Origin: Muribaculaceae bacterium
GTDB taxonomy: Bacteria; Bacteroidota; Bacteroidia; Bacteroidales; Muribaculaceae
DNA: 61,788 bases
Direction of reading: 5' to 3'
Assembly (NCBI GenBank): GCA_029062005.1
Contig: JAIDQZ010000023.1
Span: 1-61,788 of the forward strand
Shown: positions 4,068 through 40,428 of the stretch, piece after piece
Layout of the letters: the number at the start of each line of letters is the position of its first letter
Position numbering within the stretch: the first letter of the stretch is position 1
Translations under genes and position numbers: made by a program
Notes under the pieces: model-generated
The model's database searches: none
Seen by the model: the letters and a program-made list of their open reading frames with translations, nothing else
Told to the model about the DNA's origin: nothing

Positions 4068-5327
4068 ATGGATAAAAAACTGACCTTCATAAGTCGCAGC
4101 GACATTCGTGGCGGAGCGGCTATAGTCACATATCGTTTAGTTGAGGCACTGCGTGTCGCCGGAGTCGATGCAAGGATGCTCGTGTGTGAGAAAATGAGCG
4201 ATTCTGATTTTGTGCAGGTATGTGCTTCGGCATGGCGAATAAAGTATTCTTTTTTTAAGGAACGTCTTAAAGTGTTTTTCAACAATGGGTTCAACCGAAG
4301 TAATTTATTTAAGGTTGATCCTGCCTGTGAAGGTCTGCCTTTGTGGAATCATCCTTGGGTCCGTAATGCGGATGCCGTATTTCTTGGATGGGTGAATCAG
4401 GGGATGTTGAGTCTGCATGGATTACATAAGATAGCGGGGCTTGGAAAACCTGTGATATGGATAATGCATGATATGTGGAACATGACGGGGATATGTCATC
4501 ATGCCGGAGCTTGTGACGGTTTTCATGATAAATGTGGATGTTGTCCGCTATTAGGAGAAGGAAGTAAGCAAAACGACATGTCGCGTAAGACGTGGGAGTC
4601 CAAGAAACTTCTTTATGAAGACCGTAAGATAAGGTTTATTGCCGTCAGCTCATGGCTTGCACAAAAGGCGGCCGAGAGTAGCCTGCTGTGTGACATGGAT
4701 GTAAAGGTGATTCCTAATCCGTTTAATATTGGCGGTGATTCGGATATGAATGAAAGGTTAGGTAAAAGGACAGGAAAGGTTAGGATTATATTCGGGGCGG
4801 CAAGACTGGACGACCCTATTAAAGGTCTCCCGGTATTGAAAGAGGCTTTGGATGTGATAGGGAGCTCATATCCAGAGATTGCATCAGACCTTGAATTAGT
4901 GACTTTCGGATCGGTAAGGGAGGTCGGCAGTCTGAACGCTTTTACGATTCCTCATCGTCATCTCGGAGTGATTAAGGGAGCGGATGAGATCAAGAAGGCT
5001 TATGAAAGTTGCGATATAGTAGTGTCAACATCTGATTATGAGACGCTTCCCGGCACTCTTGTGGAGGGACAGGCATATGGATGCATTCCGGTAGCAGTCC
5101 ATCATGGAGGTCAAGGTGATATAATAGATCATCAGAAGACAGGCTGGCTGGCATCATGGAGTGATTCTCCCTCCGTTCGGGCAGCAAATGTTGCTGATGG
5201 CATCGTGTGGGCATACAGAAACTGCGGGAATATCGACTTGCTGAAAGCAATGAGAATGTCGGTGGAAAAGAAATTCAGCGCACCCGAAGTGGCAAGGAAA
5301 GTCCTTGAATTTGCATTTGAAAAGTGA
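4068..5327 (+). CDS. Glycosyltransferase, GT4-like
   Basis: Probable cytoplasmic GT-B glycosyltransferase of 419 residues. The N-terminus shows the donor-side glycine motif (SDIRGGAAIVTYRL). The middle carries HDMWNMTGICHH followed by a cysteine-rich CDGFHDKCGCCPLL, a pattern I know from GT4 enzymes of Bacteroidetes polysaccharide loci. The C-terminal half has the nucleotide-sugar E(x7)E-type region (STSDYETLPGTLVEGQAYG). The gene stands apart from the main polysaccharide operon, between thyA and tRNA-Pro. Its substrate cannot be read from sequence. Confidence 0.85.
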   Translation: MDKKLTFISRSDIRGGAAIVTYRLVEALRVAGVDARMLVCEKMSDSDFVQVCASAWRIKYSFFKERLKVFFNNGFNRSNLFKVDPACEGLPLWNHPWVRNADAVFLGWVNQGMLSLHGLHKIAGLGKPVIWIMHDMWNMTGICHHAGACDGFHDKCGCCPLLGEGSKQNDMSRKTWESKKLLYEDRKIRFIAVSSWLAQKAAESSLLCDMDVKVIPNPFNIGGDSDMNERLGKRTGKVRIIFGAARLDDPIKGLPVLKEALDVIGSSYPEIASDLELVTFGSVREVGSLNAFTIPHRHLGVIKGADEIKKAYESCDIVVSTSDYETLPGTLVEGQAYGCIPVAVHHGGQGDIIDHQKTGWLASWSDSPSVRAANVADGIVWAYRNCGNIDLLKAMRMSVEKKFSAPEVARKVLEFAFEK

Positions 5328-5366
5328 TCACGTGATGTCGTGACCGGTGTCAATATTGTTTAGCCA

Positions 5367-5397
5367 CAAAAAAAAGATGCAATCATGTGATTGCATC
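5367..5397 (-). terminator. Rho-independent terminator of tRNA-Pro
   Basis: Read on the minus strand, a perfect stem gatgcaatca / tgattgcatc (5376-5397) is followed by a run of eight T. It lies 7 nt past the tRNA 3' end. Confidence 0.8.
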
Positions 5398-5404
5398 CTT
5401 TCTG

Positions 5405-5478
5405 TCGGGGTGACAGGATTCGAACCTGCGACCACCTGGTCCCAAACCAGGTGCGCTACCGGACTGCGCTACGCCCCG
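5405..5478 (-). tRNA. tRNA-Pro (anticodon UGG)
   Basis: The minus strand folds as a cloverleaf. The anticodon stem CCTGG/CCAGG encloses a loop with anticodon TGG, the T-loop is TTCGAAT, and the D-arm begins TAGCGCAG. The acceptor strands CGGGGCG and CACCCCG pair except for a C6-A67 mismatch. The discriminator is A, and the 3' CCA is not encoded (ACAGA follows). It has its own promoter and terminator and stands alone. Confidence 0.93.
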
Positions 5479-5505
5479 ATTGCCGTGATTTTTTCATCGA
5501 CTGTG

Positions 5506-5536
5506 CAAAGTTAATTGTTTTTATTGGATCTTGCAA
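5506..5536 (-). promoter_or_regulatory. Promoter of tRNA-Pro
   Basis: On the minus strand, TTG (5536-5534), 20 nt and TAACTTTG (5513-5506) match the Bacteroidetes consensus exactly. The predicted start is about 24 nt before the tRNA 5' end. Confidence 0.75.
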
Positions 5537-5598
5537 GAAATTCTTTATTTTTTTCTCTTCTCTTATATACATTTTCGTTTATGAATCGTTAAAAGAGT

Positions 5599-5997
5599 AT
5601 GAGAAAGATGAAGCTTATATCGGTTTTTGCAATAGTGGCTGTTGTGATGATGATCATGACAGCTCTTCCTTCCTATGCTAAGGGGGACGCGAAAATTAAC
5701 TTTAAAGAAACTGTTTACGATTTCGGTGAGATATCTGTCAAGGACGGAAAGGTGTCGCATGAATTTGCGTTTACAAATGCCGGAGATAAAAATCTGGTCA
5801 TTACAAATGCACGTGCAGATTGTGGATGTACACGGCCTGAATATAGTGACGCCCCCGTCGCTCCAGGGAAATCGGGTAAGGTCAAGGTGACGTTTGCTCC
5901 GGCTGCACAGGGACATTTTTCGAAGAAAATCACCATTACTACAAATGGAGTCCCCCGAAAGGCGAGGCTTCTCATCAAAGGCGAGGTAGTGAAATGA
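5599..5997 (+). CDS. DUF1573 exported protein
   Basis: A 132-residue protein with a signal peptide (about 1-27, ending PSYA) and one DUF1573 immunoglobulin-like domain. The family hallmark NARADCGCTRPEYS (C75, C77) and the closing pattern APGKSGKVKVTF are clear. DUF1573 proteins are abundant exported proteins of Bacteroidetes with no established function; the two close cysteines could bind metal or form a disulfide (inference). The stop overlaps the start of a second DUF1573 gene by 4 nt, so the pair is translationally coupled. Confidence 0.88.
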   Translation: MRKMKLISVFAIVAVVMMIMTALPSYAKGDAKINFKETVYDFGEISVKDGKVSHEFAFTNAGDKNLVITNARADCGCTRPEYSDAPVAPGKSGKVKVTFAPAAQGHFSKKITITTNGVPRKARLLIKGEVVK

Positions 5998-6767
5998 AAA
6001 ATAACCTGCTCCCCAAAGGGAGATCGATGCCTTGTACAGTGATTCTCATTACAATTGTTCTGGGAATTGCCCTGTCAGCATACTGCCAGATTGAGAAGTC
6101 TCTTGAATTTATTCCGGGAGTGGTAGACTTCGGAATAATTCGGGAAGAAGATGGAAAAGTAAGCAGAGAAGTTAAGGCTGTCAACATTTCTTCTGATTCC
6201 ACATATATTATTTCAGCGAGGACAAGCTGCGGATGTTCAGAAGTGGAGTATAGTCAGGATATGATTGCTCCCGGTGATACTGCTTATGTGACAGTTACAT
6301 ATGATCCTAATAACCGTCCTGGCAAATTCCTTAAGACAGTCAAGTTCTTCACCGGAGAAGATAGGATAAGCAATTCTGTGAAACTTAGCGGCATCGTCAT
6401 CCCGAGCAGGGAGAATATTGATGAGGCATATCCCTTTCAAGCAGGGAGACTGCGTCTTTCTGCATTGCTTGTCAATGCCGGTGAGGTATCGAGAAAAGAG
6501 GCGCGCCCGCTTTTCGTAGGCATATATAATGACAGTGAACATCCTGTAACTCTTGTCGCAGATACCCGGGATACGGCTCTTGAGGTAACGTTGACTCCTG
6601 ATATTATAGAGCCTTTTGGAGTCTCCACCTTGACTATGATGCTTAAAGGAAGGCTTTTTAAAGGAGACGAGACGGATTTTTTGTATAAGACATTTATCAA
6701 GGATGCCTTGACCGGTGATACTGTAGTATGCATTCCGGTAGGAGGCACAATCAAATCCAACATATAA
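5994..6767 (+). CDS. DUF1573 exported protein, longer paralogue
   Basis: A 257-residue protein with a hydrophobic N-terminal segment (about 14-31), then a DUF1573 domain with ISARTSCGCSEVEYS (C79, C81) and APGDTAYVTVTY. A second beta-rich segment (about 140-255) lacks the CxC motif and may be a degenerate repeat of the same fold. It overlaps the upstream single-domain paralogue by 4 nt and is followed by meaB after 15 bp. No biochemical function can be assigned. Confidence 0.82.
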   Translation: MKNNLLPKGRSMPCTVILITIVLGIALSAYCQIEKSLEFIPGVVDFGIIREEDGKVSREVKAVNISSDSTYIISARTSCGCSEVEYSQDMIAPGDTAYVTVTYDPNNRPGKFLKTVKFFTGEDRISNSVKLSGIVIPSRENIDEAYPFQAGRLRLSALLVNAGEVSRKEARPLFVGIYNDSEHPVTLVADTRDTALEVTLTPDIIEPFGVSTLTMMLKGRLFKGDETDFLYKTFIKDALTGDTVVCIPVGGTIKSNI

Positions 6768-6782
6768 CCTAAATATTACATA

Positions 6783-7877
6783 ATGGAACATCCTGAAAAC
6801 GATGCGAAATATGTCGGACTCCGTGTGAATGCGGGCGTAAAGTCAAATCCGACAGTGAATCCATATAGAAAGGTCGTAAAGAAAAAAAGGATACTTACTG
6901 CTGGCGAATATGTGGAAGGTATTCTGAAAGGTGACGTAAGTCTTCTTGGTAGGGCGGTGACGCTTATTGAGAGCACTGCTGAAGATCATCAGTCAATTGC
7001 ACAGGAGGTCATAGAGAAATGCCTGCCTTATAGTGGCAATTCACGCAGAATTGGCATCACAGGCGTGCCGGGAGCCGGAAAGTCGACATCGATAGATGTG
7101 TTCGGTACCCATGTGATACGTCAGGGTCATAAGCTGGCTGTTCTGGCTATCGATCCCAGCAGCGAGCGTACAAGGGGAAGTATTCTTGGCGATAAGACGA
7201 GAATGGAGAAACTGTCGCTTGAAAAAGATGCGTTTATACGTCCCTCTCCCTCCGGAGGATCTCTTGGAGGTGTGGCTCGCAAGACGAGGGAGACGATTGT
7301 GCTTTGCGAGGCTGCCGGATATGACCGTATTTTTGTGGAGACAGTCGGAGTAGGGCAGAGCGAGACGGCGGTGCACTCAATGGTGGATTTCTTCCTGCTT
7401 ATCCAGCTTGCAGGCACAGGAGATGAACTTCAGGGTATAAAGAGGGGAATCATGGAGATGGCTGATGGAATCGCTATAAACAAGTGTGATGGTGACAATG
7501 TAGATAGATGCAAACTTGCTGCCCAGCAGTTTCGCACGGCATTGATGCTATTTCCTCCGACTCCGAGCAAGTGGGTGCCGGAAGTGGTGACCTACAGCGG
7601 ATATTATGAGCTGGATATCGACAAGGTCTGGGATATGATCGACAGATACTTTAAGTATGTCGAGGAGACTGGCTATTTCGAGCGCAAGCGTAATGAACAG
7701 GCTCGTTATTGGATGACAGAGACTATCGAGGAGCAGCTCCGGAGCAGATTTTATCATACACCAGGACTGAAGGAACTTCTTGAACAGAAAGAACTGCGCG
7801 TTCTGAATAATGAACAGTCTTCCTTCACGGCTGCTAAGGATGTTCTTGACTATTATTTTGAATATATCCGTAAATGA
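6783..7877 (+). CDS. meaB: Methylmalonyl-CoA mutase-associated GTPase MeaB
   Basis: A G3E-family GTPase of 364 residues that guards and reloads the B12 cofactor of methylmalonyl-CoA mutase, used in propionate/succinate metabolism. It shows a Walker A motif GVPGAGKS (residues 94-101), the family-specific DPSSERTRGSILGDKTRM and an NKCDGDN guanine-recognition motif. The C-terminal helical dimerisation part is present. The mutase genes mutA/mutB, commonly adjacent, are not in the window. It is probably the last gene of the run that starts with the DUF1573 pair. Confidence 0.93.
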   Translation: MEHPENDAKYVGLRVNAGVKSNPTVNPYRKVVKKKRILTAGEYVEGILKGDVSLLGRAVTLIESTAEDHQSIAQEVIEKCLPYSGNSRRIGITGVPGAGKSTSIDVFGTHVIRQGHKLAVLAIDPSSERTRGSILGDKTRMEKLSLEKDAFIRPSPSGGSLGGVARKTRETIVLCEAAGYDRIFVETVGVGQSETAVHSMVDFFLLIQLAGTGDELQGIKRGIMEMADGIAINKCDGDNVDRCKLAAQQFRTALMLFPPTPSKWVPEVVTYSGYYELDIDKVWDMIDRYFKYVEETGYFERKRNEQARYWMTETIEEQLRSRFYHTPGLKELLEQKELRVLNNEQSSFTAAKDVLDYYFEYIRK

Positions 7878-7927
7878 GTGATTGCTAATAGTGTAATGCT
7901 GATTGGCTAAAATGATGTGGGCAATAG

Positions 7928-21840: not shown

Positions 21841-22719
21841 CTAAATATTAGAATTATAATGACTCTTTCGGGGGAACAATAATCTATGGACTAAATTATA
21901 TCTTATGGCAATAAGAAAATTTTTGATATAAGTGCGAATGTTATTCTCATTGTCTAATCTGTCTTTGACCATTGCGATTGGCACTTTCATTGCTTTCAAT
22001 CTATTATGGTAAATATATACATTCAATAGATATTCTGACATATAGCCGAAAATCCTCGCTTGGTCTGAATATTGGGATATATGTACCCTACGTTCGACTT
22101 CAAAAAGCAGATCAAATAGCCATTTTGAATAATCCTGAAAGGTGTCATATTTCATTATAAACATGTTACAGCTGGAAAACTTATTATTCTGATACATGAT
22201 TTTATAATAGCTCTGCCAATATTCCGGATACTTTTCTTTGATTACCCCTTCCAAAATGTCCAAATCATTCGGAATACGATATTGCCTATAGTGCATTGCC
22301 CCACAAAATGAATGTATATGAGGTTTTGCCACTATGACATCATATTTTGAAAATATCTTGTCTAAATCAGGAAGTTTCGGAAAATTCTTTTCGATATCTT
22401 GCGAAGTGGTATCAAAAATATTGGTCCCGTAGGGAAGTTTATGAGAAAAATCAAAATATCTCCTGTAGTGATTTAGACCAATATATTTACTATGTGGTCC
22501 GTTTTTCCAAAGCCAGTAGTGACCGGTAAGCTCACAGAAGTTTGGATTTTTGGTGGATATTGAGTCTCCGGTATCGTCTCCTTGAATTCCCAAGTCAACT
22601 TTTGCGTTAGCTTTGCCTACTTGTAGGGGGAGGAATCCGGCTCCTTTGTGATAATAGTCTTGTTTATGGCAACATACTATAATCGACAAATCGTTTTCTT
22701 CTGGTTTCTTATTTTCCAT
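21841..22719 (-). CDS. DUF4422 protein (probable glycosyltransferase)
   Basis: A 292-residue protein of the DUF4422 family, found in polysaccharide loci and thought to be glycosyltransferases. Visible family blocks are LSIIVCCHKQDYYHKG, LQVGKANAKVDLGIQGDDTGDSIS, the CELTGHYWLWKN segment, IGLNHYRRYFDF, VIVAKPH and a distal CNMFIMKYDTFQDYSKWLFDLLFEVE. It is the last gene of the minus-strand operon and overlaps the glf stop by 11 nt. The sugar transferred is unknown; since glf precedes it, galactofuranose is a reasonable guess only. Confidence 0.82.
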   Translation of the reverse strand: MENKKPEENDLSIIVCCHKQDYYHKGAGFLPLQVGKANAKVDLGIQGDDTGDSISTKNPNFCELTGHYWLWKNGPHSKYIGLNHYRRYFDFSHKLPYGTNIFDTTSQDIEKNFPKLPDLDKIFSKYDVIVAKPHIHSFCGAMHYRQYRIPNDLDILEGVIKEKYPEYWQSYYKIMYQNNKFSSCNMFIMKYDTFQDYSKWLFDLLFEVERRVHISQYSDQARIFGYMSEYLLNVYIYHNRLKAMKVPIAMVKDRLDNENNIRTYIKNFLIAIRYNLVHRLLFPRKSHYNSNI

Positions 22720-23848
22720 TTGTTTTGAAAAAATTTTGAACCTTCGCTATAATGGGGGCCATGTCATAATACTTATATTCTGCCAGTCTCCCTCCGAATA
22801 TCACATTTTGTTCCTTATTTGCCAATTCTTTATATTGTTCGTACACTTTCTGATTGCGATCGTCATTGACGGGATAAAATGGCTCCATGCCATCGTGCCA
22901 TTCAGTAGAGTATTCTTCAGAAATGACTGTCTTGGGATTATCGTAGACTGCATTCCCGAACATCTCGAAATGCTTATGCTCGATGACTCTTGTGTATGGG
23001 ACATCTGCCGACGTATAATTTACTACTGCATTCCCCTGATGATTGGCTTCATCGAGAACTTTTGTGTCAAAATATACTGTCCTATATTCGAGTTTCCCGA
23101 ATCGGTAATCATAGAACTCATCAATCTTGCCTGTGAAAACAATCTTATCAGAAATGGACTCCCAATACTCGCGGGAATTGAAAAAGTCTGTATCCAGTTT
23201 GACGTCTATACCGTCGAGAAGTCCGTCTATGAGCCTGTTGTATCCACCGATTGGTATCCCTTGGTAATCGTCATTGAAATAGTTGTTGTCAAAGGTCAGA
23301 CGCACCGGAAGGCGTCTTATGATAAAGCCTGGAAGGTCAATGCACTTACGCCCCCATTGCTTTTCCGTATATCCTTTGATCAATTGCTCATATATATTTT
23401 TTCCGATGAGGGTAAGCGCCTGCTCTTCAAGATTACGCGGCTCTGTCACGCCTGCAGACCGCATCTTGTCAACAGCCTCCTTTCGCTGTTCATCCAGCTT
23501 CTTCTGTGCCTCTTCAGGTGTCTTGACTCCCCACATCTGATAAAAAGTGTTCATATTGAAAGGGAGGTTGTAAAGCTTGCCGTCGGGTGCCTGAGCCACC
23601 GGACAGTTTGTATATCGGTTGAAAGGTACAATCGAGTTGACAAAATCCCATACATCCTTGTCAGATGTGTGGAATATATGGGGTCCATACTTATGCACGT
23701 TAATGCCCTCGACTTCTTCACAATAGATATTCCCTCCTGCATGTGGTCGTTTATCGATCACAAGGCATCGTTTGCCCTGCTTATGGGCGAGGTGAGCGAA
23801 GGTCGCACCGAATAGTCCGGCTCCAACTATCAGGTAGTCGTATTGCAT
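22709..23848 (-). CDS. glf: UDP-galactopyranose mutase
   Basis: FAD enzyme converting UDP-galactopyranose to UDP-galactofuranose, so the polymer probably contains Galf. The 379-residue protein has the N-terminal dinucleotide motif DYLIVGAGLFGATFAH, the family blocks GGNIYCEEVEGINVHKYGPHIFHT and KGYTEKQWGRKC, and C-terminal GGRLAEYKYYDM. It overlaps the DUF4422 gene by 11 nt and is 29 bp downstream of the GT8-like gene. Confidence 0.96.
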   Translation of the reverse strand: MQYDYLIVGAGLFGATFAHLAHKQGKRCLVIDKRPHAGGNIYCEEVEGINVHKYGPHIFHTSDKDVWDFVNSIVPFNRYTNCPVAQAPDGKLYNLPFNMNTFYQMWGVKTPEEAQKKLDEQRKEAVDKMRSAGVTEPRNLEEQALTLIGKNIYEQLIKGYTEKQWGRKCIDLPGFIIRRLPVRLTFDNNYFNDDYQGIPIGGYNRLIDGLLDGIDVKLDTDFFNSREYWESISDKIVFTGKIDEFYDYRFGKLEYRTVYFDTKVLDEANHQGNAVVNYTSADVPYTRVIEHKHFEMFGNAVYDNPKTVISEEYSTEWHDGMEPFYPVNDDRNQKVYEQYKELANKEQNVIFGGRLAEYKYYDMAPIIAKVQNFFKTNGK

Positions 23849-24919: not shown

Positions 24920-26050
24920 TCATCGGTTTTTGTACATATCGTCGTAATAGCGTTCGTATTCGCCCGATGTGATATTGTCCATCCACTCCTGATTGTCAAG
25001 ATACCAGCGGACTGTCTTCTCAATGCCTTCTTCAAACTGCAGGCTTGGCTCCCACCCGAGTTCAGACTGAAGCTTGCGGCTGTCGATGGCATAGCGCATA
25101 TCGTGACCGAGACGGTCTGTGACGAATGTTATGAGTTTCTCAGACTCTCCTTCCGGATTGCCGAGAAGTCTGTCGACAGTCCTGATAATAACTTTTATGA
25201 GGTCGATATTCTTCCACTCGTTGAAACCGCCGATATTATAAGTGTCGGCGATTTTCCCCTTATGGAAGATCAGGTCTATGGCGCGTGCGTGATCCTCCAC
25301 AAAAAGCCAGTCGCGTACGTTCTCACCCTTGCCATACACAGGCAGAGTCTTACCATGGCGGATGTTGTTGATAAACAAAGGTATCAGTTTCTCGGGGAAT
25401 TGATATGGTCCGTAATTGTTAGAGCAGTTGGTCACGATGGTCGGCATGCCGTATGTGTCGTGATATGCTCGCACAAAATGATCGCTGCTCGCCTTTGAGG
25501 CTGAGTAGGGAGAATGGGGATTGTATTTTGTAGTTTCAAGAAAGAATTCCGTGCCGTAAGCCATGTCATCCTCGCTCGAAGCCTTGGTGGTGAAGGGTGC
25601 GGGGACACCTTCCGGATGAGTCAGCTCAAGAGCGCCATACACTTCATCGGTAGAGATATGGTAGAAGCGTTTGCCTTCATATTTATTAGGAAGTGCTTCC
25701 CAATATTCTTTTGCGGCCTGAAGCAGTGCAAGAGTTCCCATCACGTTAGTCCGGGCAAACGTGAACGGATCCCTGATTGAGCGGTCCACGTGACTCTCGG
25801 CAGCAAGATGTATTATGCCGTCTATCTCATATTCCCTCACAATCCTGCGCATTTCATCAAGATCAGCGATGTCTGCCCTTACGAAAGTATAGTTTGGTTT
25901 GACCTCCACGTCCTTAAGGTTGGCGAGATTGCCTGCGTAAGTCAGTTTGTCAAGATTGACAATATGATATTCCGGATATTTATTGACGAAGAGGCGTACC
26001 ACATGGCTCCCTATGAAGCCTGCGCCGCCTGTGATGAGAATGTTCTTCAT
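24920..26050 (-). CDS. rfbB: dTDP-glucose 4,6-dehydratase
   Basis: Second step of dTDP-L-rhamnose synthesis. The 376-residue short-chain dehydrogenase has GGAGFIGSHVVRLF at the N-terminus, HLAAESHVDRSI, the catalytic region HISTDEVYGAL, and YSASKASSDHFVRAYH with the YxxxK pair. It comes last in the rfbA-C-D-B order read on the minus strand, 32 bp after rfbD. Confidence 0.97.
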   Translation of the reverse strand: MKNILITGGAGFIGSHVVRLFVNKYPEYHIVNLDKLTYAGNLANLKDVEVKPNYTFVRADIADLDEMRRIVREYEIDGIIHLAAESHVDRSIRDPFTFARTNVMGTLALLQAAKEYWEALPNKYEGKRFYHISTDEVYGALELTHPEGVPAPFTTKASSEDDMAYGTEFFLETTKYNPHSPYSASKASSDHFVRAYHDTYGMPTIVTNCSNNYGPYQFPEKLIPLFINNIRHGKTLPVYGKGENVRDWLFVEDHARAIDLIFHKGKIADTYNIGGFNEWKNIDLIKVIIRTVDRLLGNPEGESEKLITFVTDRLGHDMRYAIDSRKLQSELGWEPSLQFEEGIEKTVRWYLDNQEWMDNITSGEYERYYDDMYKNR

Positions 26051-26082
26051 CTTAATTATAATTATAAATGATTAATGATGAA

Positions 26083-26970
26083 TTATTTCGAGAGATTGGA
26101 AATACATTTTTTGAGTGAATCTGTCCAATATGGCACTTTCATGCCAAATGTATTCTTGAACTTGGTCTTGTCAAGCACTGAATATGAAGGGCGCGTGACC
26201 GGAGAAGGGAACTCATCACTATGGCATGGCTGGATGTCGCAGTCTTTGTTACCCGTGATTGATGCTATCGCTTTTGTGAAGTCATACCATGAGCAAACTC
26301 CTTCGTTAGAGTAGTGATAAAAGCCTTCGTTTTCGTCCGTCAGTCGATGTTCAACTATATGGAATATAGCGTCGGCAAGATCCTGAGCATATGTAGGTGT
26401 GCCTACCTGATCGAATACGACATTCAACTGAGGTCTTGAAGAAGTCAGTTCCATCATGGTCTTCACGAAGTTTTTACCGTATTCTGAGTAAAGCCATGCC
26501 GTACGGAAGATCAATGCCTTCACTCCGGATTCTACAATCTGCTGCTCGCCATGCAGTTTTGTAAGTCCATAGATCCCTGTCGGATTTACAGGCTCTTCTT
26601 CTGTGCGTGGTGTGTTTCCTTCAGCTCCTCCGAATACATAGTCGGTTGAGATATGTATCAGCGTACCTTCGTTATCTTTCAAGGCATCAGCTAAGTTCCT
26701 TACCGCTTTTGCATTAAGCGTTTCCGCGAATTCCCGGTCTGTTTCCGCCTTTTCTACATTAGTGTATGCCGCGCAGTTTATGATAAGCTTTATAGCCTTG
26801 TCCGATACCATTTTCTTGACAGCATCTGCATCTGTAATGTCCAGTTCGGCTACATCTGTGAAGATGTATGTGTCGTGCGTGTCATGCTGTGAGTTTTTCG
26901 AGGCGTTTTCAACGGCGTTCCGCATGCAGTTGCCAAGTTGTCCGTTGGCACCTGTTACAAGTATATTCAT
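26083..26970 (-). CDS. rfbD: dTDP-4-dehydrorhamnose reductase
   Basis: NAD(P)H-dependent last step to dTDP-L-rhamnose. The 295-residue protein shows ILVTGANGQLGN, NCAAYTNVEKAETD, HISTDYVFGG and YGLTKLHGEQ (catalytic YxxxK). Its start overlaps the rfbC stop by 4 nt. Confidence 0.96.
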   Translation of the reverse strand: MNILVTGANGQLGNCMRNAVENASKNSQHDTHDTYIFTDVAELDITDADAVKKMVSDKAIKLIINCAAYTNVEKAETDREFAETLNAKAVRNLADALKDNEGTLIHISTDYVFGGAEGNTPRTEEEPVNPTGIYGLTKLHGEQQIVESGVKALIFRTAWLYSEYGKNFVKTMMELTSSRPQLNVVFDQVGTPTYAQDLADAIFHIVEHRLTDENEGFYHYSNEGVCSWYDFTKAIASITGNKDCDIQPCHSDEFPSPVTRPSYSVLDKTKFKNTFGMKVPYWTDSLKKCISNLSK

Positions 26971-27521
26971 ATTTCAAATGGAGTTAGGAAATCCTTGAGG
27001 TTAGGATGCTTTGTATCCTTTTCAGAAAGGATTGCATTTGCCGGATCGATGTGCCAGTCTATGCCAAGAGTCGGATCAAGGATGGATATGCCACCGTCTG
27101 CCTCCGGATGATAGTAGTTGTCACATTTATATTGGAAAATGGCTGTGTCACTGAGCACTGCGAATCCGTGGGCAAATCCGTGTGGGATGAAAAACTGCCT
27201 GTGGTTTGCTTCTGAGAGTTCCACGGCGACATGTTTCCCATAAGTAGGAGATCCTTTTCTTATATCTACAGCTACATCAAGAACAGCCCCTTTGACACAT
27301 CTTACCAATTTTGCCTGGCAAAAAGGTGGACGTTGAAAATGTAGACCTCTGATCACTCCGAAGCTGGAACAAGATTCATTGTCCTGAACGAATTCAGTGT
27401 CAGCTACATTTTCGTCAAACCATCTTTTGGAATAAGACTCAAAGAAATAGCCTCTTGCATCAGTGAATACTTTTGGTTCAAGTATCTTTAGTCCTTCTAT
27501 TTCAGTGTCTATTATTTTCAT
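26967..27521 (-). CDS. rfbC: dTDP-4-dehydrorhamnose 3,5-epimerase
   Basis: Cupin-fold epimerase of dTDP-4-keto-6-deoxyglucose. At 184 residues it has standard length. Motifs: [29 protein letters not shown] with the catalytic histidine, [11 protein letters not shown] and [10 protein letters not shown]. Its start lies 20 nt inside rfbA; the strong N-terminal match ([16 protein letters not shown]) supports that start. Confidence 0.97.
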
Positions 27522-28392
27522 CCGTTGCTAATTTTATTAGATATTGTCCATATTGGTTTTTAAGCATCGGCCTGGCGATTTCGATAAGTTTTTCTTTCGA
27601 GATCCATCCATGGCGGAAAGCGATACCTTCGAGGCAGGCTATCTTAAGACCCTGTCTTTTCTCAAGCACTTCTACATATATGGATGCTTCTGCCAGAGAA
27701 TCGTGGGTGCCGGTGTCGAGCCATGCGAATCCACGCGGGAGAGTGCTTACCTTCAGAGCTCCATCCTTTAGAAATTCCTGATTTACTGTAGTGATCTCAA
27801 GTTCTCCACGCGCAGATGGTCTGATGCTTGATGCTATATCCACAACCTTGTTGGGATAAAAATATAGTCCTACGACTGCGTAGTTCGACTTGGGATGTTC
27901 AGGCTTCTCTTCAATGGAAAGACAATTTCCATTATTGTCAAACTCGGCCACGCCGTATCTTTCAGGATCATTCACCCAATATCCGAATACTGTAGCCTTT
28001 TTTTGAGCTTCTACAGTTGCTACTGCATCTTTAAGAATTTGTGAGAAATTAGCACCGTGAAAAATGTTGTCACCAAGTACAAGGCATACGGAATCATTTC
28101 CAATGAATTCCTTTCCGATTATGAAAGCCTGTGCAAGTCCGTCTGGCGATGGCTGTTCGGCATAAGAAAAATTCACACCATAATCAGAACCGTCACCGAG
28201 CAGGCGCTTGAACCCCGGGAGGTCTTGAGGGGTGGAAATAATAAGTATATCCCTTATTCCGGCAAGCATCAGTGTAGAGATGGGGTAATAGACCATCGGC
28301 TTGTCGAAGATAGGGAGAAGCTGCTTGCTGACTCCTTTCGTGATGGGATATAATCTTGTGCCGGATCCTCCGGCGAGAACGATGCCTTTCAT
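27502..28392 (-). CDS. rfbA: Glucose-1-phosphate thymidylyltransferase
   Basis: Makes dTDP-glucose from glucose-1-phosphate and dTTP. The 296-residue protein begins [19 protein letters not shown] (nucleotide-binding), with [20 protein letters not shown] and [13 protein letters not shown]. It is first of the four rhamnose genes, 6 nt after the LicD gene, which ties the rhamnose genes to the LicD block in one transcript. Confidence 0.97.
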
Positions 28393-28398
28393 GGTTCG

Positions 28399-29112
28399 CT
28401 AATACTTTATTTTGTTTCTGTCTACTTTAATCCCGAGTAGCTCACACTTTTTCAGGAATTTCTCCAGATCTTTGCGATGATGATGTCGTAGCATAGGATA
28501 ATAGATGAAATCCGGCATGGCATTCTTGATTGACACTTTCAGTCTAAGAATCAGTTTGGCAAGTGTCCCAAGCTCAAAATCCGCATATTGCACGGGAGTC
28601 TTCCAATCGCCGTAAAGCAGCGTGAGGTGTCGGTCTGTGTTTTGTGGAATATTTATATTTATGCCTTTGAAAACATGGTTGACAGTATCTGTGAAATCCT
28701 CGTCAAAAAGGAATGTCGCTCCGGTATGCCGGATTCCTCCGCCCACATCCTCCAATACGTATACATCCATATATTCTCCGTTTCGCATAAATGAGTAAAG
28801 TCCGCGCCGCTCATATCTGATAAGTTCGAAGCCTTTATCTTTCAATATTGGCAGGAGAGCGTCAAACGCGTCTTCCTGCTCCTTTAGCAGATACAGATCG
28901 ATATCTTCATCCCACGAAATAAAGTCATTGTCTCTGATGATACCTAAAAGTGATCCGAAGGCAGGACCTGTCTTCACACCGCCATCATTCATTACAGATA
29001 AGAAATCTCTGAGATTGGCTAAGGATATTTCCTTATCAATTTTCTTTATTCCTAAATATAGAAATTTCCTTTTATATCTGAAAGAGCCTGTCGACGTACG
29101 TTTTTTTGCCAA
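28399..29112 (-). CDS. LicD family phosphotransferase
   Basis: LicD proteins transfer phosphocholine or related groups (phosphoethanolamine, ribitol phosphate) from CDP-activated donors to glycans. This 237-residue protein has the family core GSLLGIIRDNDFISWDEDIDLYLL, whose acidic residues bind metal, and a YMDVYVLED continuation. It lies 2 nt after the GT4 gene, with a cytidylyltransferase-like fusion two genes further upstream. A CDP-linked small alcohol amine is therefore a likely donor (inference). No choline uptake or kinase genes (licA/licB) are in the window. Confidence 0.88.
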   Translation of the reverse strand: MAKKRTSTGSFRYKRKFLYLGIKKIDKEISLANLRDFLSVMNDGGVKTGPAFGSLLGIIRDNDFISWDEDIDLYLLKEQEDAFDALLPILKDKGFELIRYERRGLYSFMRNGEYMDVYVLEDVGGGIRHTGATFLFDEDFTDTVNHVFKGININIPQNTDRHLTLLYGDWKTPVQYADFELGTLAKLILRLKVSIKNAMPDFIYYPMLRHHHRKDLEKFLKKCELLGIKVDRNKIKY

Positions 29113-29114
29113 AA

Positions 29115-30203
29115 CTAAGATTTTTTGAGATTTTCTATGACCTTCACCACAGATTCGTCGAAAGTAAGATTCATGCGGCTTTCCGACTTACTGTCAGATT
29201 CGGCTAATTTGATGAAAGATTCGTCTATAAGAGCTGCAAGTTGTTCGGAAGAGGCCGGATCAAAGATCTTTCCATTGCTTTCATCTATGAGACATGTGGA
29301 ACCGCATGCTTCCGAAAGCAAAGTGAAACAACCGCCGAGCAGCGCTTCATTAGTGACGGCTCCGAATGGCTCCTGAGAACTGGGTAGTACGAAAATATCA
29401 GCGATGTTATACCATGCTCTGATTTCAGCATCCTCGAACCTTCCCAAAAAGCGAATATCCCGGTTTGTTTCGGAGGCTTCTTTTTTAAGCTGCTCCTTCA
29501 ATGGACCGTCTCCTATGATTACAGTCGTGAAATCAGTATGAGTTTGTTTAACAGCCCTGATTAAGGTGGAAATATTCTTTACCTCTGCCAGCCTCCCCAC
29601 ATAGAGAAGAATCTTCTTATCAGCCAGATCATATCTGGTCTTGAATGCCTCTGATATTTCTTCAGCTTTTCTATAAAGCGGAATCTCTACCTTTTCATCT
29701 CTCATGATGGGCAACCATTGTCCTTTCCCATATTTATCCCTGAACCATCGGCATACTTTATCATCTACGAGCAGCAGGTCGTCCAAGAACGGAGTGACCA
29801 ACTTTCTTGCCAATTTGTGTGTGCGGGTGAAGTCTTTGCCATGTGCTACCATATCATAACTGTCGTCGCACATGGATATTACCTTCATTTTCTTTCTAAA
29901 CAGAAATTTATATGCCAGTGCCTGCAGTGTGATGAGCTTGAATTCAGGCACAATGACAATATCAGGATTATTTTCACGGATAATCTTCCATATGTTCTTA
30001 TGATAGGGGATTCCTAAAAATTCCCCCTTTTCAAGAATCTCCGGTTTGAACTTGCAGCGACGTTCGATTTTACCGATATCGTAGTTTTGGGATGAGTCTG
30101 TGCGCGACATAAAATACATCCTGCAGTCGAGCTTTTCATTCAGTGCATTATAAGTGTCAACCCTATAGGGGGCTACGTTGGTACGGAAAAACAAGTTTGC
30201 CAT
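29115..30203 (-). CDS. Glycosyltransferase, GT4-like
   Basis: A GT-B enzyme of 362 residues. The C-terminal half shows ILLYVGRLAEVKNISTLIRA, TTVIIGDGPLKEQLKKEA, IRFLGRF and the donor-binding FVLPSSQEPFGAVTNEALLGG (E(x7)E). The N-terminal LFFRTNVAPYRVDTYNAL is typical of acceptor domains. It sits 6 nt after the opine-dehydrogenase-like gene, within the suspected decoration block. The sugar cannot be told from sequence. Confidence 0.9.
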   Translation of the reverse strand: MANLFFRTNVAPYRVDTYNALNEKLDCRMYFMSRTDSSQNYDIGKIERRCKFKPEILEKGEFLGIPYHKNIWKIIRENNPDIVIVPEFKLITLQALAYKFLFRKKMKVISMCDDSYDMVAHGKDFTRTHKLARKLVTPFLDDLLLVDDKVCRWFRDKYGKGQWLPIMRDEKVEIPLYRKAEEISEAFKTRYDLADKKILLYVGRLAEVKNISTLIRAVKQTHTDFTTVIIGDGPLKEQLKKEASETNRDIRFLGRFEDAEIRAWYNIADIFVLPSSQEPFGAVTNEALLGGCFTLLSEACGSTCLIDESNGKIFDPASSEQLAALIDESFIKLAESDSKSESRMNLTFDESVVKVIENLKKS

Positions 30204-30209
30204 GAATGC

Positions 30210-31223
30210 TTACTGAATCTTTGCTTTCCCCCACGTATATACCTGATCAATTTTTGGGGTACTCACATTATATTTTTTTCCTAATTCCCAGATATATTTC
30301 AGGCTGTATCCGAAATCCTCTGTGAAATACCTGCTGCCGAAGTCCGGATACCATCCGCGATCGTCTTCCTTCATGGGCGATGTTATCCCTTTGAATCCTT
30401 CAATGGAAGATAGTTTCTCTTTTAACGATGCGGCATCATGGCTTTCATAATATTCCAGTAGAGGAACAAGACATTTGATGTCTACCGGCAGATGCTTGAG
30501 TATATCGAACAATTCGGCATCCATCTGAATCATAAGTTCTGCCGCTTCTTCGGTCCACTCCTCATAGAAGAGTATGTTGTGGTCAGACCTGGTATCATCT
30601 GTCCAGTCTTTAAACATTGTAAATAGACGGGCGGTATGCAGTATAGGATTGCTGTTGCTGATACTAACTTCCAGGTAATTGTTCCTCAATACGGTAGGGG
30701 TCTTGAACGCCGTTTCTGTCCACTGTCTGAATTCCTCTTTTTCTTTTTCAGAAGCTCTTTCGACTGCAATATTGAGTTCCGCCTTTGAAGAAAGCAGGTT
30801 TGCTTCATGTCCATATTCTTTTACCCTTGAAATAAAGGGGACTCGCTGGAATCCCCAGAGTCGGATATTATCAGGGATTATCTTCAACGCTTCAAAGAAG
30901 AAGCCGGAAGACGAGAACACAGCTCCCAGATAGCTTCTCTCTTTAAGATAAGGAGCAATAGCCTGCAGTTCAGATAAATTTGCATATCCTGGAACGGTAA
31001 GCAGTATGATATCCGCATCCGGAATTATATCCGATGGGCGGTCGGTTATGTGCTTGATTTCTCCTGTCAGTTTTCCATTTGGAGTATTTATAACCAGACA
31101 CTTGCTCCATTTCGCGGGTCTGCGGCTCAGGACCGAGACATTGTATCCTTGAGCAGAAAGCCAGCCTGTAATGACATGTCCTAAAGATCCTCCTCCGACT
31201 ATGACAATATTCCGGATATTCAT
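30210..31223 (-). CDS. NAD/NADP octopine/nopaline dehydrogenase family protein
   Basis: A 337-residue protein with an N-terminal Rossmann motif IVIVGGGSLGHVITGW and, in the second half, the opine-dehydrogenase domain (NSNPILHTARLF with the likely catalytic histidine, and SRYFTEDFGYSLKYI). Family members reductively join an amine and a 2-oxo acid. In this operon it lies between a cytidylyltransferase/PLP-domain fusion and a GT/LicD pair, so its amine may be the product of that fusion (inference). The frame is open up to 31292, but that would overlap the upstream gene; ATG 31223 starts exactly at the Rossmann strand and leaves a 38-bp gap. Confidence 0.82.
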   Translation of the reverse strand: MNIRNIVIVGGGSLGHVITGWLSAQGYNVSVLSRRPAKWSKCLVINTPNGKLTGEIKHITDRPSDIIPDADIILLTVPGYANLSELQAIAPYLKERSYLGAVFSSSGFFFEALKIIPDNIRLWGFQRVPFISRVKEYGHEANLLSSKAELNIAVERASEKEKEEFRQWTETAFKTPTVLRNNYLEVSISNSNPILHTARLFTMFKDWTDDTRSDHNILFYEEWTEEAAELMIQMDAELFDILKHLPVDIKCLVPLLEYYESHDAASLKEKLSSIEGFKGITSPMKEDDRGWYPDFGSRYFTEDFGYSLKYIWELGKKYNVSTPKIDQVYTWGKAKIQ

Positions 31224-31261
31224 ATTGTTGTCTCTTGATTCAATTGCAACTCTATGGAATG

Positions 31262-33076
31262 TTATCCGAGTATATCCATAAAGGCTTTGCAAAGAGCGTG
31301 ATTGTCTTCCCTGTTGCGGATTGCTATGCGTATATATTGTTTGCCGTCATGAAAACCTTTCTTTGCCGAGCAGTCTTTGATGAGAATATCGTAGTCGGTG
31401 ATAAGGCGTAGCGCGAGTTCATGAGACGTGATACCTCCGGTCAGCTCGCAGAGGAAATAATTTGCCTGGGAAGGGATAGCTCTCAATCCTGGAATTTTCG
31501 TCAGTTCCTGATGGAATTCTTTTCTCTCTTTGCGGAAGAGAGCGCATGAATGAGCATAATCAGTCTCATATTTCCCGAATATCTGCATGTAGAATTCAGC
31601 AAATGAATTGATGTTCCATATTGCCACGTTATTCTTCATGCGTGATATCATATTTTCATCTCCGGATGCAAGCACCCCGAGACGGAGCCCGGGCACCCCG
31701 TAGGACTTAGAGATGCTTTTCATCACACATACTGAGGGATGCGACTCAAGCAGTTCATTTTTCAGCAAGGTATTCTCGAATCCCTTGTCAGAGAAGTCGA
31801 CAAAAGACTCATCGACAATAAGCCGGATCCCTTTTCCTTCAGCCCATGTTATGAGCCGGATCAAATCAGCGAAAGGTATGAAGTTGCCTGAAGGATTGTC
31901 CGGGTTGACAAGCAGCAGGGAATTAATTTCGTTTTTGGAGAAAAACGCCATAAGATCATCGGCTGTATAGGCGAAATCATCATTGTCTGGCCGGAATATG
32001 ACGAGTGATTCTGAATCCCGTCGGTTAGGATACTCTTCGAATGTCGGATAGATCACTCCGAGCTTTCCCTCCAGATTCTCCATTAGACATTTTATCAATT
32101 CGGCAGCCCCGTTTCCTGCTACGACATATCTTTGGCGTATTCCGAAATATTTGCCGGCGAGAAGTGAGTTGATTCCCATTCCGGATGGATAATCGCGGAG
32201 TAGGGATTCGAAGTTGGCTTTCATCTCGTCGATCATCCTCTTCCGAGGGAAATATGGATTGACGAGATAGCAGAAATCCAGTAGTCCGGGATATCTCCAG
32301 TAGCCACCGAAACTATGCTGAAGCTTGCGGAGTTTCTCTTCCGGAGTTGCAAACATGGTCTCGGCTATTCGCAGATCCTGCACATCGTCGATTTCATACC
32401 ATCTGGAGTCAATGGGGATTGCCTTTATATTGGCGGTGTCGATCAGTGTAATCACCCTCAATACCTGTTCGTAATATTCGTTCTCTCCAAGCACTTTGAT
32501 ATACGCCTCAAGAAAAGGGAGATAATGATCGCGACAGAATTCCTTTGTCAGCCGGTAGACATTTACCGTCTTGTAATAATAAGGTACATCCTCATATCGG
32601 AATGACTTTTTCGGAATGAAGTTGATGATGTTCTGTTCATCATCAATCCTAACCATTGTTCCGTCCATCCAGTTCTGGTATTTAGCTACAAGAGCTACGT
32701 TAGGATATCCAGCGTTGATGGCTTCATGCAGTATGGAATCGTCAAGGATCAGATCGCTTTCGAGAAGGAGTGTGTCATCCTCTTCCATATAGTCACGTGT
32801 CATCCAAAGTGAGTATATGTTGTTGGTTCGGTCATATACGGGGTTGTCTATGAAGACAATGTCAAGGTCCTGAAAGCGGGATGAGATATATTGTCGAAGT
32901 TTGGAACCTTCGTATCCGGTCACTATTATGATTCTTTCTAAATCGAGTGCGGAAAGCTGAGTCAGCATACGATCGATCAAACGTACGCCGTTGACCTCAA
33001 GCATGCATTTTGTGTTGTCAGCTGTAAACTCGCCGAGCCTCCGTCCCATCCCGGCTGCCAGTATTATAGCTTGCAT
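31262..33076 (-). CDS. Nucleotidyltransferase fused to a CobD/HisC-like PLP enzyme
   Basis: A 604-residue two-domain protein. Residues 1-240 form a LicC-like nucleotidyltransferase (AIILAAGMGRRLGEFTADNT near 3-22, then KCM; metal-binding ESD at 106-108). Residues 250-604 form a fold-type I PLP enzyme: GNGAAELI at 321-328, NPDNPSGN at 391-398, DESF at 422-425, the PLP lysine K457 in SISKSYGVPGLRLG, and a closing RIAIRNREDN with R587. The last motif resembles CobD (threonine-phosphate decarboxylase) more than HisC. A decarboxylase acting on a phospho-amino acid would make an amino-alcohol phosphate that the first domain could activate with CTP, for LicD to transfer (inference). An ordinary aminotransferase is the alternative. 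Confidence 0.82.
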   Translation of the reverse strand: MQAIILAAGMGRRLGEFTADNTKCMLEVNGVRLIDRMLTQLSALDLERIIIVTGYEGSKLRQYISSRFQDLDIVFIDNPVYDRTNNIYSLWMTRDYMEEDDTLLLESDLILDDSILHEAINAGYPNVALVAKYQNWMDGTMVRIDDEQNIINFIPKKSFRYEDVPYYYKTVNVYRLTKEFCRDHYLPFLEAYIKVLGENEYYEQVLRVITLIDTANIKAIPIDSRWYEIDDVQDLRIAETMFATPEEKLRKLQHSFGGYWRYPGLLDFCYLVNPYFPRKRMIDEMKANFESLLRDYPSGMGINSLLAGKYFGIRQRYVVAGNGAAELIKCLMENLEGKLGVIYPTFEEYPNRRDSESLVIFRPDNDDFAYTADDLMAFFSKNEINSLLLVNPDNPSGNFIPFADLIRLITWAEGKGIRLIVDESFVDFSDKGFENTLLKNELLESHPSVCVMKSISKSYGVPGLRLGVLASGDENMISRMKNNVAIWNINSFAEFYMQIFGKYETDYAHSCALFRKERKEFHQELTKIPGLRAIPSQANYFLCELTGGITSHELALRLITDYDILIKDCSAKKGFHDGKQYIRIAIRNREDNHALCKAFMDILG

Positions 33077-33119: not shown

Positions 33120-33881
33120 TCATAATTCTTTCTTTGGAGAGTCCTTGCGGTGACTCTTGTTTTTGAATTCCATCGAGAGAAGCGACGGAAGTGTTGACAG
33201 GATTCCCCAGCACCTCTTTATCTGTTTCCGGGGCTCTGAATATATTCGATATATGAATTCAAGATGGTTTCTTACCATCCAAGCCGGAGCTCTCTTGATG
33301 TTGAGACCGCTGAAGAAATTAAACGTGGCCCCAATGGCTATCATGATCCCATGGTGAAGATGCGGTTTCAAGAGTGCCATGAAGCGTTCCTGCTTTGGCG
33401 CTCCGAGAGCAATCCATATTATTTCGGCTTTGTCGTCATCGATCATCTTGGCTATACCCTCGTAGTCGAAATCCTCGACAGGAAGAAAGGGGAGCTCCTT
33501 GAAAGTCATATTCTCTACCGAAGGATTGATTTTCTTGAGTTCTTTCTTCAGACTGTCGAGTGTACTTTGCTGAGTTCCCAAAAAAATCATTCGGTATTTA
33601 TTGCCTTTGACTATATCGTAGAATATGTCGCTACCTGCATATTGACCACGCTTGATGCCATAGATCCATTTCAGATATACGGGCACGTAGCTGCTGTCGC
33701 AGATGGAAAACATTCCGCCGTTGATGACATCCAGATATTCCTTGTTTCTATATGTGTTGTTGAGGATATTTCCGTCGGAAACGCAGATATAATCGCTACC
33801 TGGCTTTTCCAGGCGCGACGAGATAGCCTTATGAATCGCAGATTTGTCGAATTCATAACGGATATTAAAGTAGCGTTCCAT
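33120..33881 (-). CDS. WecG/TagA/CpsF family glycosyltransferase
   Basis: GT26-type enzyme that adds the second sugar (ManNAc or related) to undecaprenyl-diphosphate-HexNAc. The 253-residue protein shows DGNILNNTY, YAGSDIFYDI, IWIALGAPKQERFM, AIGATFNFFSGLNIKRAPAW and the closing LEFIYRIYSEPRKQIKR. It pairs logically with the WecA-type transferase at 8 kb. Gaps of 150 bp upstream and 43 bp downstream separate it from its neighbours. Confidence 0.92.
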   Translation of the reverse strand: MERYFNIRYEFDKSAIHKAISSRLEKPGSDYICVSDGNILNNTYRNKEYLDVINGGMFSICDSSYVPVYLKWIYGIKRGQYAGSDIFYDIVKGNKYRMIFLGTQQSTLDSLKKELKKINPSVENMTFKELPFLPVEDFDYEGIAKMIDDDKAEIIWIALGAPKQERFMALLKPHLHHGIMIAIGATFNFFSGLNIKRAPAWMVRNHLEFIYRIYSEPRKQIKRCWGILSTLPSLLSMEFKNKSHRKDSPKKEL

Positions 33882-39594: not shown

Positions 39595-40428
39595 GTGAAA
39601 AAGTTTGGTCAAGTGGCGGATTTTCTTGTAACTTTAAAGGTGAAAATCAAACAGTTACATAAAATAATGAATCCACTTGACCAAGAAAATCTGATTGGCG
39701 CATATGCGTCCAACTGCACTGCAAAAGACTCCTGTCAGCAAAAAAGCAACGAGATAAAGGCCATCCCGCTGCTTATAGACAAGATCGACATATCGGGTAA
39801 GGTCGCTACCGCTGATGCCATGTCCATGCAGAAAGACATAATAGACAGGATCAGGACAAAGGGAGTAGATTTCCTGATTGAGCTCAAGGCCAACCAGCCC
39901 TCGTTAAGATACGGAATTGAGGACAGGCTCAAATTGCACGTTCCTCTGTATTCATACACCGAAGGGCCCGAGCTTGGACATGGAAGGATAGAGACCAGGA
40001 CATATCGTATCCATGACGGGCTGGATATAATTGCTGACAAGGACAAATGGGGAGGGAGAATGACAATTATAGAATGCGAGGCTGATACTGTCAGGAAGTC
40101 GACGGGGACACAGACACATGAAAGGCGATTGTATGTAAGCAGTCTGCCGACGGATACACCGTTGCTCGGAGCGATCGTCCGCAATCACTGGTCGGTGGAA
40201 AGCATGCATTGGGAACTGGACTTCAATCTTATGCAGGACAAGGTCAAACGCAAGACATTGAATGCCGCGCGTAACCTGGACACGATTCAGAGGACCGTAT
40301 TCTCGGTGTTCTCGATATGGAAGGGACTCCGCAAAAAGCGCTCTGACAAGAGAAAGGGAATGGCTGAGCTTATGAGGCACGTTTCGATGAGCCTCACCAG
40401 ACTGGTGCGCTTCTTATGTCAAAAATGA
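39595..40428 (+). pseudogene. Truncated ISAs1-family transposase
   Basis: A 277-codon frame whose part from about residue 30 on matches the C-terminal region of ISAs1 (H-repeat) transposases: QQKSNEIKAIPLLIDKIDIS, ATADAMSMQKDI, FLIELKANQPSL, TQTHERRLYVSSL, RNHWSVESMHWELDFNLMQD and a basic RNLDTIQRT helix. Typical members have roughly 370 residues. The missing N-terminal part would hold the zinc/helical region and the first catalytic aspartate (DGKT-type motif). The frame opens with GTG and an unrelated lysine-rich segment. It is therefore probably inactive. A long hairpin lies at the breakpoint. Confidence 0.8.
39605..39684. repeat. Long imperfect inverted repeat at the transposase 5' breakpoint
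   Basis: Outer arms TTGGTCAAGTGG (39605-39616) and CCACTTGACCAA (39673-39684), middle arms ATTTT/AAAAT (39620-39624, 39661-39665) and inner arms TGTAACT/AGTTACA (39627-39633, 39653-39659) pair to form an approximately 80-nt hairpin. GATTTTCTTG (39619-39628) is also inverted at 39682-39691. It overlaps the point where transposase homology begins. Confidence 0.7.

Follow-up and report, generated by a model that had tools for sequence, protein, structure and literature searches.

A candidate pathway to opine-type phosphoethanolamine, using either of two reductases, in polysaccharide loci of Muribaculaceae

Results

Four adjacent genes in a surface polysaccharide locus

We analysed a 61,788-nucleotide stretch of a Muribaculaceae bacterium genome (assembly GCA_029062005.1, contig JAIDQZ010000023.1, positions 1 to 61,788; hereafter the window), in which four open reading frames (ORFs) follow one another in tandem on the minus strand. 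They encode FUS, a fusion of a cytidylyltransferase with a CobD-like pyridoxal phosphate (PLP) enzyme; ODH, an opine-dehydrogenase-family protein; a GT4-type glycosyltransferase; and a short LicD-family protein (Table 1). A first-pass annotation of this DNA had described the same four neighbours, with a LicC-like nucleotidyltransferase and a fold-type I PLP enzyme joined in the first, and both the ORF positions and the Pfam matches, scored against curated cut-offs, agree with it, including the opine-dehydrogenase and LicD assignments. The ODH ORF is listed as 30210-31292, and its start is placed at a downstream ATG because relatives are mostly about 337 residues long. The four genes are surrounded by genes of the WecG, WbsX, rml, glf and flippase types, which identifies the region as a surface polysaccharide locus. 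The arrangement of FUS, ODH, GT4 and LicD is not due to chance, because 56 of the 197 family genomes surveyed encode a full-length FUS relative and a genome from another family has FUS, ODH and LicD in a compact operon.

The window's LicD scores 58.4 bits with the NCBIfam Mf1 model, below the cut-off of 225, and has the motif G-x-x-LG-x-x-R ... D-x-D-x-D in common with the other LicD sequences aligned; from its sequence it is a predicted phospho-amine transferase. The GT4 enzyme is a candidate for making or extending the acceptor. A DDE transposase gene (PF01609, positions 39595-40428, plus strand) borders the locus, and a gene for a CotH kinase-family protein (PF08757, 40596-42032, minus strand) adjoins it.

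Table 1. Coordinates of the features discussed, in the window and on viral contigs
Feature	Sequence	Coordinates	Strand	Notes
FUS, cytidylyltransferase + CobD-like PLP fusion	window	31262..33076	-	604 aa, coordinates include stop codon; NTP_transf_3 46.0 bits, Aminotran_1_2 99.4 bits
FUS first domain, LicC/PntC-like nucleotidyltransferase	window	32342..33076	-	residues 1-245; alignment with PntC
FUS second domain, fold-type I PLP enzyme	window	31265..32329	-	residues 250-604; alignment with CobD
ODH, opine-dehydrogenase-family protein	window	30210..31223	-	337 aa; Octopine_DH 117.8 bits (cut-off 30); likely start ATG at 31223
GT4-type glycosyltransferase	window	29115..30203	-	362 aa; Glycos_transf_1 95.5 bits
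LicD-family protein, short form	window	28399..29112	-	237 aa; TTG start; PF04991 44.4 bits (cut-off 22.6), best stretch only residues 53-79
WecG/TagA/CpsF glycosyltransferase	window	33120..33881	-	context; Pfam match
rmlA, rmlC, rmlD, rmlB-like genes (dTDP-rhamnose)	window	24920..28392	-	polysaccharide-locus context; family matches
UDP-galactopyranose mutase	window	22709..23848	-	context; PF03275 263.5 bits
Viral FUS relative	L141	6001-7806		
Viral FUS relative	L142	6001-7815		
Viral FUS relative	L143	6001-7800		
Viral FUS relative	L144	6001-7797		

Domains and conserved residues of FUS

FUS was compared with relatives from a set of 63 loci, 57 from the family and 6 from the order. Contig-edge fragments in G346 (L119, L120), a stop-split copy in G714 (L127) and a 33%-identical protein in G143 (L128) were left out of these 63 rows, and 22 further loci served for reading and alignments and were kept out of all counts. 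The nearest named relatives of FUS in the databases are from metagenome-assembled genomes labelled Muribaculaceae or Bacteroides sp.

The nucleotidyltransferase half finds its best PDB matches in PntC (6pd1, 1.9e-13) and LicC (1jyk, 2e-8). Glu106 (32759-32761) aligns with Glu104 of PntC and is Glu in 63 of 63 relatives, and Glu196 of PntC pairs with Tyr202. On this basis the first domain is likely a cytidylyltransferase of the LicC/PntC type, with a predicted role in activating a phospho-amine with CTP.

In the PLP half, Lys457 (31706-31708), singled out in the first-pass annotation, aligns with CobD Lys216, which we take to be the PLP lysine, and is kept in 62 of 63 relatives; the C-terminal RIAIRNREDN noted alongside it is also present. 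Lys567 aligns with CobD Arg323 (conserved in 55/63) and Arg583 with CobD Arg337 (conserved in 61/63). In the FUS relative L100, from genome G399, the PLP lysine is replaced by Gly and a further change, R465C, is seen; this is probably a degenerate or repurposed copy. The threonine-phosphate decarboxylase (CobD) model TIGR01140 gives FUS 163.2 bits, below its curated 290.55 and still the best NCBIfam score among the 25 models listed, and the HisC model TIGR01141 gives 124.7 bits against a curated 276.55. In profile comparisons of the PLP half, SMUL_1544 (189 bits) scores above the CobD proteins of Salmonella (122) and Porphyromonas (99), and SMUL_1544 (PDB: 6oux) is also the closest solved structure by sequence (1.2e-54). 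In the fold comparison with CobD, HisC and PntC that had been proposed earlier, SMUL_1544 and CobD are tied as nearest to the PLP half, whose fold and PLP lysine are those found in phospho-amino-acid decarboxylases, and the top Foldseek match of the whole model is the PntC-AEPT fusion. HisC belongs to the same fold family. The PLP half is likely to act as a decarboxylase.

Co-occurrence of FUS with ODH, OCD and LicD

We surveyed 197 genomes of the family (FUS at E<=1e-80, ODH at E<=1e-20), and included, at E<=1e-20, an ornithine-cyclodeaminase/mu-crystallin-type protein (PF02423; hereafter OCD). FUS is found in 56 genomes, ODH in 30 and OCD in 29; FUS is present in 29 of the 30 ODH genomes and in all 29 OCD genomes. 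Either partner occurs in 54/56 FUS genomes versus 1/141 without FUS (Fisher p 7e-45, a value that ignores the kinship of the genomes). The sole non-FUS genome with a partner, G360, carries only a divergent 404-residue ODH. With the divergent form left out, 25 FUS genomes have ODH only, 26 OCD only, 3 both and 2 neither; with it counted, the numbers become 25, 25, 4 and 2. Both partner types are found side by side in several genera. Two family genomes have neither: in G427 FUS sits close to the end of a contig, and in G342 a LicD gene adjoins FUS. The divergent second ODH form, of about 402-404 residues, is encoded away from FUS in G347, G360, G440 and G469 and shares about 26-29% identity with the ODH of the window.

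The co-occurrence survey suggested by the first-pass annotation also ties FUS to LicD, which is detected in 48/56 FUS genomes versus 49/141 without FUS, an undercount in that the window's own short LicD is not picked up. Among LicD-positive genomes, ODH or OCD is present in 47/48 with FUS versus 1/49 without. LicD is recognised in 41 of the 63 FUS stretches.

ODH His196 (30636-30638) and Asp303 (30315-30317) align with His212 and Asp329 of octopine dehydrogenase, and this His-Asp pair is kept in all 27 locus-associated ODH sequences. The OCD partner matches PF02423 with 89.1 bits (cut-off 24; locus L003), and its best PDB sequence match is SbnB (2.5e-12). An OCD model (mean predicted local distance difference test score 88.1) retrieves pyrroline-2-carboxylate reductase (E 6e-22) and SbnB (3.5e-21) in Foldseek, and also matches alanine dehydrogenase, iminosuccinate reductase and mu-crystallin.

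Gene order, partner exchange and gene fusions

At the 63 FUS loci, the next gene is ODH in 18 and OCD in 22; OCD followed by ODH is seen in 3, a convergent OCD in 3, ODH fused to FUS in 3 and ODH further off in 1, while 1 locus runs into a contig end and 12 have neither partner in the stretch. Most of these 12 are not cases of partner absence: for 8 of them a partner is encoded elsewhere in the genome. With ORF starts assigned mechanically, 39 of 43 same-strand FUS-partner pairs range from overlapping by 31 bases to lying 7 bases apart, and 17 overlap by exactly 4 bases. In the cultured isolate Parabacteroides sp. 52 (L021), a stretch of 22 kb holds FUS, LicD and an OCD gene.

Mapped onto a FUS tree of the 63 rows (built by a quick method, with only SH-aLRT branch support), the ODH/OCD label changes 20 times, 11-12 of these changes being forced by well-supported branches alone, and the labels are not more clustered than shuffled ones. 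Near FUS pairs may have different partners, as in L094 (OCD) and L099 (ODH fused) or L102 (ODH) and L103 (OCD). The idea that the partner is tracked by FUS sequence was rejected, as no alignment column predicts the partner and the strongest column was equalled in 44/100 permutations. Nor is it tracked by the nearest LicD, where 11 changes over 39 LicD rows are weakly or not clustered; with four labels the nearest-LicD tree requires 14 changes, as few as in 21/200 shuffles. Frequent partner exchange without a predictive FUS column indicates that FUS probably makes the same product whichever partner it has.

In three sampled genomes (L086, L096, L099) the nucleotidyltransferase, the PLP domain and ODH form, in that order, a single protein. 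Among 112 long database proteins with an ODH domain, 33 also contain the FUS PLP domain and 75 a LicD domain; the remainder have OCD (1) or another or no recognised partner (3). These fusions tie ODH both to the step before it and to the step after it. Among database proteins, P0352 (663 aa) joins ODH to an OCD domain and P0280 (546 aa) joins it to a HAD-type hydrolase.

FUS outside the family and on viral contigs

L140 comes from a genome outside the family but within the order, and in it FUS (4387-6201), ODH (6198-7217) and LicD (7221-7910) form a compact operon. Eight more distant FUS genomes comprise 3 with ODH, 1 with OCD and 4 with neither; in G731 and G580 LicD directly follows FUS without ODH or OCD. 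Among 392 order-level genomes drawn separately, 5 gave a strong ODH match; FUS is present in 5/5 of these, one of which is the source of the L140 operon.

Full-length FUS relatives with 44-49% identity are also present on four viral contigs (Table 1). L142 has a LicD above the Pfam cut-off and L143 a marginal one, with none in the stretches from the other two. On L142, FUS is directly followed by a GFO/IDH/MocA oxidoreductase, and neither ODH nor OCD accompanies FUS and LicD. Phage-type neighbours include a clamp loader (L142), a DNA primase and a tail sheath protein (L144) and a nicotinamide phosphoribosyltransferase (L141). A search of viral contigs for ODH gave 110 pattern matches, of which 0 were confirmed. 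The occurrence of FUS and LicD without a partner, both outside the family and on a virus, suggests that the two may be an older core making plain phosphoethanolamine, to which the reductase is an added module.

Discussion

A proposed pathway

The first-pass annotation had proposed that a phospho-amino acid is converted to a phospho-amine, activated as a CDP derivative and attached by LicD. Homology and the predicted fold make this route plausible as a core. It is incomplete in that ODH is left without a job. Two other sources of the amine were searched for in the window's genome. The phosphonate (aminoethylphosphonate) route was set aside because phosphoenolpyruvate (PEP) mutase gives no match over the family cut-off there, only a partial one of 28.8 bits against 31.5; among the 56 FUS genomes 6 exceed the cut-off and only G412 matches the full profile. 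Choline import followed by a kinase was rejected, since the choline kinase LicA (PF01633) has no match in the window's genome, with the control positive in 5/14 genomes.

The reading that the evidence supports best is a pathway to opine-type phosphoethanolamine in which FUS and LicD work with either of two interchangeable reductases, ODH or OCD. FUS would decarboxylate O-phosphoserine to phosphoethanolamine and join it to CMP. ODH (or OCD in its place) is predicted to attach an alpha-keto acid to this amine by reductive coupling, and the N-carboxyalkyl phosphoethanolamine so formed would be passed by LicD to a sugar in the surface polysaccharide. N-alkylation would have to follow decarboxylation, because a primary amine must be free for the PLP enzyme to act, and could come either before or after the CTP step. 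What the ODH and OCD families share is redox chemistry on a C-N bond beside a carboxylate, and, given a primary amine from FUS, reductive N-carboxyalkylation is the simplest job that both could do. Pyruvate is the usual keto acid of opine dehydrogenases.

Several observations weigh against this reading: no LicD is seen in the fetched stretch at 22 of the 63 FUS loci, 3 genomes have both ODH and OCD, 6 of the examined FUS genomes (family and outside) have neither, and the decarboxylase assignment comes from homology. Observed are the genes themselves, their joint occurrence across genomes, the swapping of partners, the fused proteins and the retention of catalytic residues. Every reaction is inferred from them, as are the keto acid and the acceptor, and we therefore hold the probability of the reading at about 0.5.

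A more speculative extension, which we offer tentatively, is that surface polysaccharides across the family bear phosphoethanolamine with an opine cap, made by a three-step cassette (FUS, an imine reductase, LicD), and that exchange of ODH and OCD between strains changes the stereochemistry of the cap or the keto acid, a serotype-like switch that would give mirror-image or sister antigens. This suggestion arises because PF02317-type opine dehydrogenases yield D products, whereas the substrates of OCD relatives are L amino acids.

Alternative explanations

The least improbable alternative, and one we still consider unlikely, is that the group added by FUS and LicD is plain phosphoethanolamine, with ODH or OCD serving another step of polysaccharide synthesis. 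Consistent with this, FUS and LicD occur without either partner in G731, G580, G342 and the viral contig L142, and the window's LicD clusters, on a long branch, with LicDs from genomes lacking both ODH and OCD (L110, L121, L123). Against it stand the near-constant presence of a partner in the family's FUS genomes, even where the partner is unlinked (8 of the 63 loci), and the proteins that join ODH directly to FUS or LicD.

It is slightly less credible that the PLP domain is a transaminase making another phospho-amine, such as serinol phosphate, which would then be activated, capped and transferred. HisC lies in the same fold family, the fusion partner of PntC is an aminotransferase (PMC6697681), and Campylobacter jejuni Cj1437 makes serinol phosphate for a capsule (PMC12409886). 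However, the best sequence and fold matches are SMUL_1544, a decarboxylase by its PDB title, and CobD, and within the same capsule cluster Cj1436 provides a precedent by decarboxylating serine phosphate (PMC12409886).

Use of phosphothreonine by the PLP domain, giving 1-aminopropan-2-ol phosphate as the amine, is improbable: threonine-phosphate decarboxylase is the best NCBIfam model and CobD ties with SMUL_1544 by fold, but SMUL_1544 outscores both CobD proteins in the profile comparison and governs the formation of norcobamides, which have an ethanolamine linker (PMC6759758). The last alternative concerns the reductases. That ODH and OCD are amino- or imino-acid dehydrogenases feeding or clearing a FUS substrate, with no amine alkylation, is equally improbable: the OCD fold is common to alanine dehydrogenase and pyrroline-2-carboxylate reductase and SbnB cleaves rather than makes a C-N bond in its pathway, but PF02317 proteins with the His-Asp pair are opine dehydrogenases and the 75 ODH-LicD fusions point to a step near transfer, not to amino-acid supply.

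Implications

If correct, the opine-type phosphoethanolamine pathway would be a third, choline-free branch of CDP-linked glycan decoration beside phosphocholine and aminoethylphosphonate, and would account for opine-dehydrogenase and ornithine-cyclodeaminase-type genes in polysaccharide loci. Sequence would then predict which strains carry a carboxylated, net negative group rather than zwitterionic phosphoethanolamine, and the repeated swap of two reductase families beside near-identical FUS proteins opens a stereochemical or keto-acid switch to direct testing. A literature search covering few subscription journals found no link of opine dehydrogenases to surface polysaccharides, and no description of a FUS-type fusion or of opine-type phosphoethanolamine.

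Comparison with known systems

The O-antigen of Proteus mirabilis O14 contains 2-[(R)-1-carboxyethylamino]ethyl phosphate, on which our search found no paper; with pyruvate as the keto acid, the proposed pathway would yield this same group. In the accessible part of one source, Proteus O14 is listed among structures without rare monosaccharides, with nothing there on carboxyethylamino-ethyl phosphate (PMC5560731).

PntC-AEPT of Treponema denticola (PDB: 6pd1, 6pd2) has, like FUS, an N-terminal LicC-like cytidylyltransferase and a C-terminal fold-type I PLP enzyme, and its Glu104, retained as FUS Glu106, is the amine-contacting residue (PMC6697681). It differs in working on a phosphonate, whereas the window's genome lacks a PEP mutase match over the cut-off. 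Its PLP half is class V by its deposited name, in contrast to the CobD-like class I/II half of FUS, and its domains are placed differently from those of the FUS model (root-mean-square deviation 21 Å).

In the Lic-1 system (LicABCD), a CDP-activated phospho-amine is likewise moved by a LicD-family protein, LicD using CDP-choline; phosphoethanolamine can also come from the lipid phosphatidylethanolamine, for example via Lpt3 (PMC10434233). Pneumococcal LicC disfavours phosphoethanolamine 2700-fold (PMC6697681). Unlike Lic-1, the pathway proposed for the window's genome has no choline kinase match, and the FUS amine would be made inside the cell.

Likened by description only, Cj1436 of the Campylobacter jejuni capsule is a dedicated PLP decarboxylase that converts serine phosphate to ethanolamine phosphate for a surface polysaccharide; there the product is amide-coupled and its phosphate removed, and the accessible part of the source describes neither CDP activation nor LicD (PMC12409886). 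SMUL_1544 is a stand-alone enzyme that serves norcobamide synthesis (PMC6759758), whereas FUS is a fusion.

For the reductases, the match of ODH to octopine dehydrogenase (PDB: 3c7a, 9e-28) extends over the length of ODH, and SbnB (PDB: 4m54, 4mp6) is the best PDB match of the OCD partner by sequence. These two known enzymes work on N-carboxyalkyl amino acids, and the title of 4m54 names such a compound as ligand. Their known substrates are amino acids, whereas the amine predicted here would be ethanolamine phosphate or CDP-ethanolamine.

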